64,000 bases of DNA from an uncultured Alistipes sp. (GTDB taxonomy: Bacteria; Bacteroidota; Bacteroidia; Bacteroidales; Rikenellaceae). The notes under the pieces are model-generated. The model ran no database searches. It was not told the origin of the DNA and worked only from the letters and a program-made list of their open reading frames with translations. The translations under genes were made by a program, and so were the position numbers. The stretch lies in the NCBI GenBank assembly GCA_944326035.1, contig CALVCS010000010.1, forward strand, positions 124,001 to 188,000, given 5' to 3'. Position 1 is the stretch's first letter; every line of letters begins with the position of its first letter. Positions 29,745-47,680 of this stretch are shown here, one piece after another.

Positions 29745-29864
29745 TTTACTTCTTTTTTAGGGTCGATTCCGCGTTGTACACACCGGGTGTCTCCGCAGAA
29801 ACCGGCCGAATGAATAAAATAGGGAAAAACTTAGCTGTTGTGGGGGAGAACCAAATACTAGAGC

Positions 29865-29915
29865 AATTTTAGCATTTTTTTGAGTGGTTGCAAGCGGCCA
29901 AATCTTTCCACGGTA
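29865..29915 (-). promoter_or_regulatory. SAM-II (SAM-alpha) riboswitch aptamer of metK
   Basis: On the minus strand the leader reads, in order, CGTGG, AGATTTGGCC, GCTTGCAACCAC, an A-rich run, then GCTAAA. This matches the SAM-II consensus: stem P1 (GTGG with CCAC), the GATTTG loop, TTGCA, the A-rich stretch, and the GCTAAA strand that forms the pseudoknot. It lies directly after the promoter and ahead of the SAM synthase gene, the expected target. I see no clear intrinsic terminator downstream, so control of translation initiation is likelier. The basis is my recollection of the consensus. Confidence 0.82.
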
Positions 29916-29929
29916 ACGATATGTCGGGG

Positions 29930-32716: not shown

Positions 32717-32719
32717 CAG

Positions 32720-32803
32720 TGCCCAGGAAAGGACTCGAACCTTCATGGCATCACTGCCACTCGCCCCTGAAACGAGCGCGTCTACCGATTTCGCCACCTG
32801 GGC
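32720..32803 (-). tRNA. tRNA-Leu (anticodon CAG)
   Basis: 84 bases on the minus strand. Acceptor GCCCAGG pairs with CCTGGGC; the anticodon stem CTCGT/GCGAG has loop TTCAGGG, anticodon CAG; a long variable arm (TGGCAGTGATGCCA) marks a class II tRNA; the T loop is TTCGAGT. CCA is not encoded. Confidence 0.95.
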
Positions 32804-32870
32804 CTTTTATCGAAGCTTTCCGAAGAAAGACCTTAGTCAGAATAATAAGATCAGAACCTCAGTTCAGTGG

Positions 32871-32955
32871 TGCCCAGAACAAGACTCGAACTTGCACGCC
32901 GTAAACCGGCACTACCCCCTCAAAGTAGCGTGTCTACCAATTTCACCATCTGGGC
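32871..32955 (-). tRNA. tRNA-Leu (anticodon GAG)
   Basis: 85 bases on the minus strand, first tRNA of the operon. Acceptor GCCCAGA pairs with TCTGGGC; the anticodon stem CTACT/GGTAG has loop TTGAGGG, anticodon GAG; a long variable arm (TGCCGGTTTACGGCG) is present. CCA is not encoded. It is 67 bases before tRNA-Leu(CAG). Confidence 0.95.
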
Positions 32956-33000: not shown

Positions 33001-33099
33001 TTCAAAGGAAACCTGCAGATCGGAATCGGGTCCGCCTCTACAGAGTCTTCCTTCTACTAACCTAAAACTAAACCACTAACCTAAATGAACCTAAAATTT
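33001..33099 (-). ncRNA. Structured leader RNA of the tRNA-Leu operon (copy B)
   Basis: Transcribed from the promoter at 33105-33136. It opens with three TTTAGGTT-type repeats (TTAGGTTCAT, TTTAGGTTAGT, TTTTAGGTTAGTAG), then a hairpin: AAGGAA (33053-33048) with TTTCCTT (33011-33005), CTGTAGA (33043-33037) with TCTGCAG (33019-33013), CGGA (33034-33031) with TCCG (33024-33021), loop CCCGAT. The same element exists at 43138-43230 with a different but still paired distal stem. tRNA-Leu(GAG) begins 45 bases later. Possible roles: antitermination or processing signal for stable RNA, or release of a small RNA. Confidence 0.7.
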
Positions 33100-33104
33100 C
33101 GTTG

Positions 33105-33136
33105 CAAATATAGGACTTAATCTTGAACTCTCCAAA
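33105..33136 (-). promoter_or_regulatory. Promoter of the leader RNA / tRNA-Leu operon
   Basis: On the minus strand TTTG (33136-33133), 20 bases, then TATATTTG (33112-33105): a complete two-part promoter. Confidence 0.85.
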
Positions 33137-43099: not shown

Positions 43100-43132
43100 T
43101 TTGGAGAAATACCATTTTTGTCTTTATCTTTG
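43100..43132 (+). promoter_or_regulatory. Promoter of the free-standing leader-type RNA
   Basis: TTTG (43100-43103), 21 bases, then TATCTTTG (43125-43132): a complete two-part promoter with no following open reading frame on this strand. Confidence 0.8.
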
Positions 43133-43137
43133 CGGAG

Positions 43138-43295
43138 AAGTTTAGGTTCATTTAGGTTAGTAGTTTTAGGTTAGTAAAAGGAAAGACGGTAGGAGAGACG
43201 CTCAGTCTCTCTCTGCTGTTTTCCTTTGAAATTGAATCAATGCATTTTGCTACGCGATACAAAGGGAACACAATCAATGTGTTCCCTTTTTTTTT
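43138..43295 (+). ncRNA. Putative small structured RNA (copy A of the tRNA-Leu leader element)
   Basis: About 155 bases between a full promoter and a strong terminator, with no coding frame. It opens with three repeats (TTTAGGTTCA at 43141, TTTAGGTTAGT at 43151, TTTTAGGTTAGT at 43164), then a long hairpin: AAAGGAAA (43177-43184) with TTTTCCTTT (43219-43227), GTAG (43189-43192) with CTGC (43213-43216), GAGAGAC (43193-43199) with GTCTCTC (43205-43211). The first 95 bases match copy B at 33.0 kb, but no tRNA follows; about 30 unpaired bases lead into the terminator. Function unknown; a trans-acting RNA or decoy is possible. Confidence 0.72.
43261..43295. terminator. Terminator of the small RNA and of the phage-derived operon
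   Basis: AAAGGGAACACA (43261-43272) pairs with TGTGTTCCCTTT (43278-43289) around ATCAA, followed by T-run to 43295 on plus. On minus the same stem, 8 bases past the last phage gene, is followed by TTTGTA. Confidence 0.9.
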
Positions 43296-43302
43296 GTGCT
43301 TT

Positions 43303-43791
43303 TCAGGATTTGGAAACGGCTTTTAACACGAGGCCGCCCTGCATACGGATTTTGTGTCGGATATTCCGATGGGGGTCGTATTCCGGGAACAGAGTTGGGT
43401 TTGCTTCGATATATTCGATGGACTGTTCCAGCAGCAGGTCGGCTTGATGTCGAGCTTCTTTTCGCAGGAGGTGCAGTTGGCGGATAGAGATGGGTGCGGC
43501 ATAGTCGGTTTTTCCCTCCAGGATGCCCAGACTTCCGACCGATGCACTCATCAGGCTCAACGCCAGGCTTTTGACATAATAAGCCAAAGGCTTTTTGAGG
43601 AATTGGGTGACGAAACTTTCTTGACGGCTTTCCCCTAAGGTGTCGTACAGGGGGCCCAATACCGGTTTAAGATATCGAAGCTGGGCCGTTTCGATCAGGG
43701 TTTCATTGATCTGGTCATCGGGGCCGTTTGCGTTGGGCGGGAAGGCAATTTCCCAGACTTCTACAGGCGTAACGAGTAAAGGCGCACTCAT
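43303..43791 (-). CDS. Phage-derived protein of unknown function, last gene of operon
   Basis: 162 residues from the ATG at 43791, two bases after the portal stop. No motif that I recognise. Predicted largely alpha-helical, starting with PLLVTPVEVWEIAFPP and containing QLRYLKPVLGPLYDTLGE and LLRKEARHQADLLLEQSIEYI. Position directly after portal and its small size suggest a head-completion or head-tail connector protein, but this is inference from gene order. A frame with a longer N-terminus reading back through the portal gene is rejected. Confidence 0.6.
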   Translation of the reverse strand: MSAPLLVTPVEVWEIAFPPNANGPDDQINETLIETAQLRYLKPVLGPLYDTLGESRQESFVTQFLKKPLAYYVKSLALSLMSASVGSLGILEGKTDYAAPISIRQLHLLRKEARHQADLLLEQSIEYIEANPTLFPEYDPHRNIRHKIRMQGGLVLKAVSKS

Positions 43792-43793
43792 AA

Positions 43794-45035
43794 TCAGTCG
43801 ATATTTTTCAAAGCGTATTTTGTAATTTGAGCCAGGAAGAGGTTCTGTTGAGGATCGGTGGGGTCGTAGTCCAGACCGTCGTTTTTGCGCGCTTCCCACA
43901 CTTTCATATAGAGGGGCTTTGAGCGAGTGGGCGGTCGGTTGACGACCTGTAGGGAGGATGCATCGCAATTGAGGATCGTGGAGATGGCATTTCGGATCGG
44001 TTCCAACAGCTCCTGTTGTTCTCCCAGAATCAGGGTATTCAAGGCGATTTCATATTCATGCAGGATGCGTTCCGAGTTGAAACCGGTCGAATAATCCAGT
44101 CCGCTGAGCGATCGGAACCAGGAGTGAGCGACCACGATATCGGAGGTAGCCTGTTCATGGAGAAGTTTCCAATCTCCTTCATTGTCCGAAGCGATGGGGA
44201 CGAATTTCGAGTTATCGGCTTCTTCGGAGTTTTTGATCATGAACATCACTTGTCCGGGTTTTCCGGCGAAGCGTTTTTCGGCGGTTTGGATAATTTGGTG
44301 GGCATCGAGTTCGTTGTCCACTTCACCGTCCAGCACCATGATGCCGGAGAGTTGGAAGGAGTTGTCCAATCGGCTGATGTTCCATTTGTCAGTTTTATAC
44401 GCGATGGCCGACACGTTCATTCCGGCGATGTAGGCGGGTACGCCATAGTGTTCGAACATCGGTTCATAATCTTTGTAGTGGAAGATCGATCGGAGGGTTC
44501 CATCCGGAGCCGGTTCGAATCGAGGGTATAGGGGGAGCGATCGACATTGACTGAGTTTGAAATCGCTCCAGTTATGATGCAACAGGATGGCTTGATTGTC
44601 TTTGGCGACGCGGCATTTGGAGGCATCTTGATGGAATAGCGAGAGGAAGGAGTGTTCCGGGTCGGTCACGATCTCCAGGAAGGCATTTCCGAACAGTGAT
44701 TTATCGAAAGCCAGTTTATTGAGAACCTGTCGCAGGCTTTCGCCGGTTCCGTTAGCCCGTTGGGAGAAGGCTTCGAGTTGTCGGTTGTTGGGGTCGAACG
44801 AGAACCCTTTTCCAGAGATATAGTCGGCCTTGTCGTTGATAATTCGACGGTGGGTGGTAGAACGTCTGGACATCAGGGCCAAGGCGTAGGGGAAGAGGTT
44901 ATCGTTTCCCCAGCTCCAGAAAGGTCGTTTATGGTTGGCATAGGAGGGTGGCGTGAACATAAAGGGATCCACTCGGTTTTGCGGCAGGTATAGTTTTGGG
45001 GGCGCCGATTTAGGCGCAGACGGTTTCTGCATCAT
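43794..45035 (-). CDS. Phage portal protein
   Basis: 413 residues. DNLFPYALALMSRRSTTHRRIINDKADYISGKG is broken here by landmark segments: WGNDNLFPYALALM, HRRIINDKADYISGKGF and LAFDKSLFGNAFLEIV, which follow the pattern of PBSX/HK97-type portals. The C-terminal part holds SGLDYSTGFNSERILHEYE and the long helix typical of the family. A portal forms the dodecameric DNA gate of a capsid and binds the terminase; no terminase gene is visible in this window. Frame intact and well-coded, so it does not look like decay. Confidence 0.82.
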   Translation of the reverse strand: MMQKPSAPKSAPPKLYLPQNRVDPFMFTPPSYANHKRPFWSWGNDNLFPYALALMSRRSTTHRRIINDKADYISGKGFSFDPNNRQLEAFSQRANGTGESLRQVLNKLAFDKSLFGNAFLEIVTDPEHSFLSLFHQDASKCRVAKDNQAILLHHNWSDFKLSQCRSLPLYPRFEPAPDGTLRSIFHYKDYEPMFEHYGVPAYIAGMNVSAIAYKTDKWNISRLDNSFQLSGIMVLDGEVDNELDAHQIIQTAEKRFAGKPGQVMFMIKNSEEADNSKFVPIASDNEGDWKLLHEQATSDIVVAHSWFRSLSGLDYSTGFNSERILHEYEIALNTLILGEQQELLEPIRNAISTILNCDASSLQVVNRPPTRSKPLYMKVWEARKNDGLDYDPTDPQQNLFLAQITKYALKNID

Positions 45036-45044
45036 CTGGGGTGA

Positions 45045-45578
45045 TTAGTTATTCAATAGATCATCGATATTCATCATGAGGTTGTACGCTTTGGAGGTAT
45101 CCGTACTTTGCAGGACGACGATTTCCGAGCCAGGTTCCGTAAACCGTTTTCCGGTGGTGCTGCTGGTTTGCACGACGTGGAGGGGGCGTTGTTTTCCGAA
45201 TTCCGGAGAGTAACCGATCAGGTACGTTTCGTTGGCAAAGGTTTGGATGATGGCGATGAAGCCTCGGAACGAGCTGTCTATCAGTTCGGAGACGGCGATG
45301 GCCGTGGCGTTGCACATTCGATCGAGGAGGAAGGACAGTTCGTGGGTTACGACGGTGGTTCCTTGTGTGATTTCGGTTTTTTCTTGATATTCCGCTTCGT
45401 CTTCGCGGAATTCATACACGATGAAGTGTTGATTGAGTTGCAGCTCGAGGTTTGTATAGGCTCGTGCTTCGACATCGTATTCGGCATTGAGCACGTCGCT
45501 ACTCAGGATGAGGGCGAGTTTTTGGATGCCGCCATTACGTAGAGCTTTATAGGGTTTAGTGAATCCGGATAAGGCCAT
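45045..45578 (-). CDS. Phage-derived protein of unknown function between capsid and portal genes
   Basis: 177 residues. Begins MALSGFTKPYKALRNGGIQ and contains IVYEFREDEAEYQEKTEITQGTTVVTHELSFLLDRM, of which the EDEAEYQEKTEITQG block and LDRMCNATAIAVSELI look like a tail-tube or structural-protein fold, but I recognise no family. 9 bases separate it from the portal gene, 81 from the capsid gene. No membrane segment or signal peptide. Virion structural role is inferred from position only. Confidence 0.6.
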   Translation of the reverse strand: MALSGFTKPYKALRNGGIQKLALILSSDVLNAEYDVEARAYTNLELQLNQHFIVYEFREDEAEYQEKTEITQGTTVVTHELSFLLDRMCNATAIAVSELIDSSFRGFIAIIQTFANETYLIGYSPEFGKQRPLHVVQTSSTTGKRFTEPGSEIVVLQSTDTSKAYNLMMNIDDLLNN

Positions 45579-45659
45579 AAGGATGAGGGTTTAAAGGTTA
45601 AAAGGCGAGTTGGAAGAAATTCGGGCCCTACGAGGAGGGCCCGAAAGAGGGGATCTCCG

Positions 45660-46667
45660 TTAGGGTTCCGTTTGGACAGCGGAAGCGGCAAAGGAGATGA
45701 GTTCCGGAAGCAGGTAATCGCAACCGGCCATAAAGACTGCGCGTTGACGATTTTCCATCAGATCGGGGTTATACCACATCCGGATTTCGGCGCCGGGAAA
45801 ATCAGCCGTATTGACGGCCAGAGCCAGGTTTCGCCGGTCTGTCAGGATGGCGAAAGATTTCGGCATATCGGTCAGGGCCTCCAGGTAGGAGGAGAGTTCC
45901 ACGTCGATCACCGGGATTCCGCGGTAAGAGAGTCTTTCGCGACCATTTTGTTTGGCGAGGTAAGCGGCTTCCAGGCTGGCGCTATCGAGTTCTTCTTCAT
46001 ATTTGGTATAGATGTCGGAGGTGACCAGATAGACCAGATTCCCTTGCGATTTGCAAGCTTTCAGGGTATCCGAGGCGGAGTCCCACAGGCTTTTCAGCAG
46101 GTTTTCCCCTGCGTTGGGATCGCTGCCATCGGAGAAGCTGGCGGGGATATCGATTTTGTGGATATTGTTGGTGCCGCTACCGGCGTCTTCGGTCAGTCGT
46201 TTGATAAAGCCGTCGAACGTATTGTGACTTCCGGAGCGATTGGTATCTCCCAGCCACATGGTGGTTCGAATACTTTCTGCGATTGCTTCACGGAACAGTG
46301 CGGTTTCGGCCTCTTCGAGTTCGGTTCCGGAGAGGTCTTCCATGTTGACATCCGGGCGGTTTGTAATCAGTTCGAAGACGGTGCTGAAGTAGTCGGCGGC
46401 GCTGTATCCGATTTCGGCTTTCACTTTGAAGAGGGCGATGCTTTTTTGGAACTTACTGGAGCTGGTGGTTCCGCTCCAACCGCCGGCCGTAAATTTTTGT
46501 AAGATGTCGCCGGACCGTTTCCAGAATTGCAAGGTTGTGGGGACGGGCATGTTATACATAACTTTGATTCCCAGGTCGATGGCATTGGGGCCACTAAGCA
46601 TCGGGCGGAAGAAGATTTTTTCCAGCATTTGGCCGGAATAGGTTTTGGTACTTTCGATTTTTGCCAT
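45660..46667 (-). CDS. Phage major capsid protein (HK97-fold candidate)
   Basis: 335 residues. N-terminal arm with KTYSGQMLEKIFFRPML, then a core with VYLVTSDIYTKYEEELDS and, diagnostic of HK97-type capsid proteins, RERLSYRGIPVIDVELSSYL followed by DMPKSFAILTDRRNLALAV. It directly follows the ClpP-type protease gene, the usual order of prohead protease then capsid protein. The delta (scaffold) domain is not at its own N-terminus, so the protease's long C-terminal tail may serve as scaffold. Composition is like neighbouring host genes. Confidence 0.78.
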   Translation of the reverse strand: MAKIESTKTYSGQMLEKIFFRPMLSGPNAIDLGIKVMYNMPVPTTLQFWKRSGDILQKFTAGGWSGTTSSSKFQKSIALFKVKAEIGYSAADYFSTVFELITNRPDVNMEDLSGTELEEAETALFREAIAESIRTTMWLGDTNRSGSHNTFDGFIKRLTEDAGSGTNNIHKIDIPASFSDGSDPNAGENLLKSLWDSASDTLKACKSQGNLVYLVTSDIYTKYEEELDSASLEAAYLAKQNGRERLSYRGIPVIDVELSSYLEALTDMPKSFAILTDRRNLALAVNTADFPGAEIRMWYNPDLMENRQRAVFMAGCDYLLPELISFAASAVQTEP

Positions 46668-46696
46668 AGCGATAAATTTGAAAAAGGGTTAAGGGG

Positions 46697-47680
46697 TTAT
46701 AGCGAGAATTGTGCAGCATCTTGTTGATAGGATCGAGCATTGGAAGAGGCCGGGAAGTCATCTTGTCCGGGGTCTTCTTTGCTTTCGGTGGAGGTTGCCA
46801 GCGCCAGGGCACGGAGGGGAGGATCTTGGATTTTTTGGGGGGGTGTTTGGTTGAGGAGTGCAGATGGAGAGGCGTTCGGAGGGTCGAGGGGAAGTTCCTG
46901 TTGGGGGACGACAGCCGGCGATGGGGGCGTATTTGTAGAGGGTGTCGGATCGGTTTGTTTTTCAGATAACCGGGTCATGGTATCTTGCAGGAGGGAGAAG
47001 GCTGCTTTTAACAGGGTTTTCGAAGTTTCACAGGAGTCTTCGGGGGGAGCCGGCAGGTTGAGTTGTTGAACGAGTTGTCGGGTTTGGTTATCCATGTTGT
47101 GCGCGGGGATGATTCGGTCGATCAATCCGGCCGTTTTAGCCTCTCGGGCCGACAACCACTTGCCATTACCGTGATTAAGGGCCATCAGTTGGATAAAATG
47201 GTCGATGGATTTTCCAGAACGGGCGGCGTATAGTTCGGCAATTCGTCGATCGGTCTGGTTGAGCAGGTCGACGGTTTGTTCCAGGGCTCCGGCATTTCCG
47301 GCGCTGCTACTGATGGACTGATGGATGAGGTAGAGGCTGTTAGCCGACATTTCACGTCGTCCTTTCGAGGCGGCTTGGGCGATGAGGGTTGCGGCGGAGG
47401 CGACGTATCCATAGCAACGGGTTGTGATCTGTTTTTTGGATTCGCACAAGAGGTCGTGGATCAGGAGGGCGTCATTGACATTTCCGCCGGCCGATCGGAT
47501 ATTGACAATGATTTCAGGGGTTGAGATTTGTCGGATGGCTTCGATTTGTTTTTGGAACATATCCATACTTTCCGTACGGTTTTCACCGGGGCTTTCTTCG
47601 GAAAGACCGATGATACCGTCGATATTGAGTTCGGTGATTTGTTCCGAGCGTTTTACGACAACGATGGTTCCGGTTAACAT
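46697..47680 (-). CDS. ClpP-type prohead protease with scaffold-like tail
   Basis: 327 residues. Residues 1-195 are a ClpP/S14 fold with the nucleophile S95 (GYVASAAT) and H120 (LYLIHQS). The aspartate usually found just before the WLSA-type motif is missing; the sequence there reads HGNGKWLSA (residues 170-178), so the triad may be incomplete or use another residue. Residues about 225-327 are Pro/Ser/Gln-rich and disordered (PSTNTPPSPAV), fitting a scaffold or assembly tail removed during maturation. Located just before the capsid gene. Confidence 0.78.
   Translation of the reverse strand: MLTGTIVVVKRSEQITELNIDGIIGLSEESPGENRTESMDMFQKQIEAIRQISTPEIIVNIRSAGGNVNDALLIHDLLCESKKQITTRCYGYVASAATLIAQAASKGRREMSANSLYLIHQSISSSAGNAGALEQTVDLLNQTDRRIAELYAARSGKSIDHFIQLMALNHGNGKWLSAREAKTAGLIDRIIPAHNMDNQTRQLVQQLNLPAPPEDSCETSKTLLKAAFSLLQDTMTRLSEKQTDPTPSTNTPPSPAVVPQQELPLDPPNASPSALLNQTPPQKIQDPPLRALALATSTESKEDPGQDDFPASSNARSYQQDAAQFSL

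Follow-up and report, generated by a model that had tools for sequence, protein, structure and literature searches.

Background

Post-transcriptional control in the Bacteroidota is known mainly from one genus, and the hub proteins on which it depends are known only in part. Among RNAs that might serve as models, the CsrB/RsmZ sponges carry tandem short motifs and bind CsrA through GGA hairpin loops. In E. coli, the 3' external spacer of leuZ is cut out of a tRNA transcript and serves as a regulatory RNA, and leaders of the T-box or attenuator kind precede synthetase or amino-acid genes. The closest described system is FopS of Bacteroides thetaiotaomicron, a small RNA of the Bacteroidaceae with 12-15 copies of about 65-70 nt and the RRM protein RbpB as its partner; in Bacteroides, FopS acts by antisense pairing at start codons (PMC11697453, as excerpted).

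Here we describe what is apparently an undescribed family of small RNAs headed by the same tandem repeats. It came to attention in the window, the whole 64,000-nucleotide stretch of DNA analysed here, as a structured leader in front of a pair of tRNA-Leu genes. The original prediction was aware of no description of such an element in the Bacteroidota, and our searches agree. Rfam 15 contains no family that matches at gathering or relaxed thresholds and cmscan gave no T-box match, the best sub-threshold score being that of Spot 42 (26.6 bits against a cut-off of 80). No description of the element was found in the open-licence literature, and the main text of PMC11109978 and of PMC8632094 makes no mention of Alistipes, Bacteroid- or Rikenella.

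Methods

Covariance model R1 was built from 12 copies out of other genera, and model R2 from the three-way-junction RNA of genus g22 with the 5' module excluded. Hairpin statistics were obtained from 69 of 94 R1 matches. The 25 matches left out were 17 three-way-junction copies, the weak other-family matches L114 and L115, the short-RNA match in L112 (the same place as L120), the short copy L128, L133 and L135 with another 3' body, a second partial match in L057, and the short-RNA match in L108, which was omitted by oversight and for no cause. Four linked copies located by tRNA position were added to the 69, giving a set of 73 copies. For RNAalifold, 39 of 40 copies were aligned with MAFFT, G029a being excluded as a three-way-junction RNA. 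All transcript ends were inferred from sequence.

Results

Read along the minus strand, the tRNA-linked copy consists of TTTG-N20-TATATTTG, TTTTAGGTTCATTTAGGTTAGTGGTTTAGTTTTAGGTTAGTAG, the AAGGAA/TTTCCTT hairpin, 49 nt of spacer, tRNA-Leu(GAG) and tRNA-Leu(CAG), the promoter following the Bacteroidota consensus TTTG / TAnnTTTG (PMC7366714, as excerpted). Promoter, three repeats and hairpin before the tRNA-Leu pair, together with a second copy at 43.1 kb, are all as first described (Table 1). No stable RNA gene follows the copy at 43.1 kb, which is succeeded by its own separate terminator instead, and there is no module near the remaining tRNA gene of the window, that for tRNA-Ala. Within the window, the 21-mer TTTAGGTTCATTTAGGTTAGT is found at exactly two sites (0 expected from 100 shuffles) and, with up to 3 mismatches allowed, in two places in the whole 2.31-Mb genome.

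Table 1. Positions of the two window copies and of examples of the three-way-junction RNA
Feature	Position	Strand	Basis or remark
tRNA-linked copy, -33 promoter element TTTG	33133-33136	minus	sequence; consensus TTTG / TAnnTTTG from PMC7366714 (as excerpted)
tRNA-linked copy, -7 promoter element TATATTTG	33105-33112	minus	sequence; TAnnTTTG in 71/73 copies
tRNA-linked copy, 5' module with three repeats of the TTTAGGTT type, no structure predicted	33054-33099	minus	
tRNA-linked copy, variable hairpin with AAGGAA/TTTCCTT as its closing stem; no U-run in the window's genus	33005-33053	minus	predicted fold
tRNA-Leu(GAG), 49 nt 3' of the hairpin, no -7-like promoter between	32868-32955	minus	
tRNA-Leu(CAG), second gene of the same unit	32719-32803	minus	
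Freestanding copy, -33 element TTTG	43100-43103	plus	sequence
Freestanding copy, -7 element TATCTTTG	43125-43132	plus	sequence
Freestanding copy, 5' module with three TTTAGGTT repeats	43137-43176	plus	
Freestanding copy, variable hairpin	43177-43227	plus	predicted fold
Freestanding copy, Rho-independent terminator AAAGGGAACACA..TGTGTTCCCTTT with U-run	43261-43296	plus	z -5.4
Three-way-junction RNA of genus g22, example in L120	1555-1762		
Three-way-junction RNA of genus g22, example in L122	1137-1345		
Three-way-junction RNA of genus g22, example in L119	1298-1502		

Two other features of the window were recorded in passing. A SAM-II riboswitch lies at 29859-29917 on the minus strand (59.4 bits, above the Rfam cut-off), and a phage-head-like cluster with DUF6712, portal-like, virion structural and head maturation protease genes adjoins the freestanding RNA (43303-47680, minus strand). 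Similar phage-head-like neighbours flank the copy in G003 (locus L039). Searches of phages, plasmids and viral contigs with a 201-bp stretch of the window, a 146-bp stretch of L046 and an exact 27-mer returned no match.

R1 recovers both window copies, at 56.5 and 42.0 bits. Of 200 genomes searched from the bacterial family to which the window belongs, 161 gave a match, a count that, like all R1 genome counts, is a lower bound because large scans use stricter filters. The covariance-model search thus showed that the copies are not unique to the strain. One genome scored empty by the R1 scan (G020, genus g13) yet carries a version with one repeat. In an order-wide sample, 6 of 294 genomes matched and four of these belong to the window's family; the two matches outside it (G356 and G487) are weak, with E about 4e-4, and stand without the usual promoter. 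A blastn search with the freestanding copy matched 31 of 61 relatives, including 9 of 9 genomes of the window's genus; most matches within the family are real, and the matches outside it are short and seem spurious. The family of small RNAs is therefore essentially absent elsewhere in the order and restricted to one Bacteroidales family, most likely the Rikenellaceae. In other Bacteroidota, TTAGTTTAGGTTAG repeats were seen just 5' of a terminator-like hairpin (L008 at about 7930-7912 and L009 at about 3337-3319, minus strand).

Across the 73 copies, TAnnTTTG lies just upstream in 71 and a TTTG-like -33 element in 67. The predicted RNA would begin with GAAG-UUUUAGGUUCA-UUUUAGGUUAGUAG-UUUUAGGUUAGU or variants of it. 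By eye, for which a regex count over the 73 copies is a rougher substitute, three repeats are usual, with one in G020, two in the 'b' copies of g1 and in g9, four in the linked copy of G004 and more in G024. A small 5'-terminal hairpin is suggested by GAA..UUC in most copies and, on inspection, by different yet still paired sequences in g9, g13 and g15; as it is missing in the 'b' copies, no conclusion here is built on it. A leader peptide was ruled out by inspection, as single-base changes in the T-runs shift the frame.

Most copies are freestanding and comprise promoter, module, variable hairpin and U-run, and a U-run is found 3' of the hairpin in most genera. The window's genus has UUUGAA in place of the U-run in linked copies and in four freestanding copies, so that the hairpin there would not be an obvious terminator; the U-run directly behind the hairpin is missing in both window copies, of which the freestanding one has a second, separate terminator. 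In genus g19, loci L133 (1255-1379) and L135 (1268-1354) combine the same 5' module with yet another 3' body, made of a different hairpin and terminator. The repeat unit, allowing up to 2 mismatches, was not found in 400-kb samples of two holder genomes (containing 2 and 5 tRNA genes), which argues against a general 5'UTR element.

In the predicted folds of the window copies, the outer AAGGAA/TTTCCTT stem, the GTAG/CTGC stem and both differing distal stems are all paired, which confirms the folds first proposed. The tRNA-linked hairpin folds at -23.0 kcal/mol (z -3.4 against shuffles) and the freestanding one at -30.2 kcal/mol (z -6.4), and the repeat region of the same copies has no structure (z about 0). 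The original prediction saw in the differing but paired distal stems a sign of selection on structure. That pair cannot carry the claim by itself, for the two distal stems are not alignable and show no compensatory changes. The wider copy set does support selection that keeps the hairpin while its sequence changes: 65 of 69 hairpins across the family have z < -2 against dinucleotide shuffles, despite a mean pairwise identity of 0.56, compared with 0.84 for the module and 0.47 for shuffled hairpins. Folding of each copy against shuffles was used because RNAalifold returned no pairs on the alignment of 39 copies, in which hairpins of unequal length do not align. An arm-swap test gave -23.2 kcal/mol for cognate and -14.3 kcal/mol for non-cognate arms, and is partly circular in that the arms were drawn from each copy's own fold.

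The element had been taken for one dedicated to stable RNA genes, and this view did not survive the wider comparison. A tRNA, always tRNA-Leu(GAG), follows 22 of the 73 copies, in 11 genera (g1, g3, g6, g7, g9, g12, g13, g16, g18, g19 and g20), and the remaining 51 copies, in 10 genera, have no tRNA-Leu(GAG) within about 330 nt, a few of these loci (e.g. L091) being cut by contig ends; the freestanding window copy, moreover, has its own terminator. From its sequence, the element would be a small-RNA family with one member inside a tRNA-Leu transcription unit.

In all 22 linked copies, no -7-like TAnnTTTG was found between hairpin and tRNA, and the spacer shrinks to 7-8 nt in g9 and g19. With no second recognisable promoter in these loci, the tRNA is apparently made only by read-through of the hairpin where the leader is present. 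A comparison of tRNA-Leu(GAG) loci, in which 32 were submitted and 31 rows obtained (L240 gave none), found the module at 8 loci and no module at 9 loci of other families and 14 of the same family, including G002 of the window's genus. The presence of the module at some loci and its absence at others suggest that the arrangement has been repeatedly gained or lost. Several of the leaderless loci, of the same and of other families, have a promoter directly before the tRNA.

Genus g22 holds an RNA of about 200 nt with the same promoter and module, followed by a three-way junction and two hairpins at the end. The stretches joining the junction are nearly invariant (GUUG, CUAAGA and GUCGAAUACC). 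RNAalifold finds 29 pairs, 12 of them changed on both sides; on an alignment that was fitted to the model and is hence biased towards it, 96.7% of cells in 32 distinct rows are paired (shuffles, 88.1%), and the covariation score of 0.359 (shuffles, 0.188) was reached by 0 of 500 shuffles. R2 matches 86 of 200 family genomes, all of them g22, and the module lies upstream in 30 of 30 loci fetched with R2, some of which come from genomes that R2 was built from. Many g22 genomes have the short RNA and the large one arranged in tandem. No Rfam family matches the large RNA. The three-way-junction model found no match in 393 order-wide genomes, a sample that included no known holder and so is not evidence of absence. 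This relative of the short RNA is a well-supported structured RNA, unnamed so far.

Discussion

We favour, with a probability of roughly 0.6, a paralogous small-RNA family that acts in trans and whose tRNA-Leu copy yields small RNA and tRNA from one transcript. Each gene of the family has a sigma-ABfr-type promoter and would give an RNA that opens with between one and at least four tandem UUUUAGGUUAGUAG-like repeats. This constant and unstructured module would precede a hairpin of free sequence, usually an intrinsic terminator and in g22 replaced by the three-way-junction domain. One family copy would have been placed, or retained, as the first element of the tRNA-Leu(GAG) unit. There, a single transcript would provide the small RNA and, through read-through of the hairpin, the tRNA, a dual output suggested by the lack of a second promoter match; an RNase P cut at the 5' end of the tRNA would release the leader. 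That the module alone is kept, that freestanding copies have promoter and terminator and that the 3' body is exchangeable all point to a trans-acting RNA of which the module is the working part. The RNA would most likely act in trans, with the repeats as docking sites for a protein or a short-seed partner, and our leading guess for the partner is a protein that reads the repeats.

An RRM protein like RbpB was considered for this part and is not supported, since the window's genome and six near-complete holders are without a detectable one. PF00076 has 0 matches in the window's genome (G000), no RRM protein was detected in G005, G011, G025, G026, G029 or G031, all near-complete holder genomes, and such a protein was found in 10 of 37 family genomes.

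That 11 genera have a copy linked to tRNA-Leu(GAG) might instead point to a role in cis. Module and hairpin would then control transcription of tRNA-Leu(GAG) as an attenuator, a factor bound to the repeats setting the passage of polymerase through the terminator-like hairpin. The missing second promoter match fits such control, as does the U-rich stretch behind a terminator-like hairpin in most genera outside g1. We nevertheless think it improbable, because the same module heads the 51 freestanding copies, the window's genus is without the U-run, single-sequence folding shows no mutually exclusive fold and Rfam offers no T-box match. Moreover, several of the 14 leaderless loci of the same family have their promoter directly before the tRNA, which suggests that the leader is dispensable for making it. 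Far less credible still is an element acting at the level of DNA, in which a regulator would bind the repeats close behind the promoter. The fixed position of the direct repeats beside the promoter and their lack of structure as RNA would suit it, but freestanding loci would then yield a hairpin alone, the spacing varies both in steps of one base within T-runs and in steps of whole repeats, and the hairpin structure is under selection.

Antisense pairing after the manner of FopS, in which the module would pair with translation starts, is unlikely, if somewhat less so than attenuation. The module contains GGUUCAUUUUAGGUUAG, the complement of CUAACCUAAAAUGAACC, and several non-self TAACCTAA(A)ATGA matches in holder genomes fall on real start codons (for instance L167, L169, L174, L176 and L177) of secreted or sugar-related genes, roles that were judged by eye from the reading frames. 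Against this, start regions in 400-kb samples are not enriched for complementarity to the module at k=7: in G110 it was found in 37 of 284 start regions, where shuffled modules average 58, and in G004 in 45 of 288, where they average 73. Start-region complementarity is thus, if anything, poorer than for shuffled modules, and a general start-codon antisense is not supported. Neither strand of these 400-kb samples holds a site that matches the repeat unit at 12 or more of 14 positions, the only two TAACCTAA..ATGA matches in the window's genome are the RNA loci themselves, and both g9 and the 'b' copies lack the anti-start piece. As an observation in its own right, L177 (G001 contig 4) and L167 (G005 contig 24) are candidate targets: their mRNA starts have two ACCTA(A) units in tandem, with CCTAAATGA at the end, and fit the module unusually well.

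More speculatively, the small-RNA family that we favour might be part of a lineage-wide 5' RNA tag. The constant UUUUAGGUUAGUAG run common to three otherwise unrelated kinds of RNA, the hairpin small RNAs, the three-way-junction RNA and the tRNA-Leu(GAG) precursor, would be the landing site of an RNA-binding hub in bacteria able to lack RRM proteins, and RNA dose would be tied to the supply of one leucine tRNA. We regard this as possible and hold it only tentatively. The repeat tag, present both where an RRM protein is detectable and where none is, offers a concrete bait for another hub, and the fusion to tRNA-Leu(GAG) makes a link between small-RNA and tRNA supply directly testable.

Among known systems, T-box and attenuator leaders resemble the element in their structured leader, terminator-like hairpin and, here, leucine context; the element differs in standing before a tRNA where those leaders have a synthetase or amino-acid gene, and for most copies the transcript includes no gene further downstream. 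Protein sponges of the CsrB/RsmZ type likewise have tandem copies of a short motif in variable number, but the repeats here are unstructured and U/A/G-rich, and GGA hairpin loops of the CsrA type were not seen in the folds. The leuZ spacer shares the cutting of a regulatory RNA from a tRNA transcript, as proposed here, whereas our element is a 5' leader, not a 3' spacer, and has freestanding paralogues with their own promoters.

By analogy, the paralogous FopS/GibS family would be the nearest known kind, as far as the excerpts of PMC11697453 describe it; we do not assign the element to it, since the test for an RRM partner failed and the two were compared by description. FopS has RbpB and 12-15 copies, whereas here no RRM protein was detected in the genome of the window and the listed genomes have 1-3 R1 matches each. 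From the same excerpts, the likeness lies in a sigma-ABfr promoter, a constant unstructured 5' part, a diverse downstream part, a terminator hairpin (here with a U-run in most genera, though not in the two window copies), more than one paralogous copy in a genome and short length, and what sets the present element apart, in a comparison by description rather than alignment, are its tandem repeats, its tRNA-linked copy and its alternative three-way-junction 3' domain.
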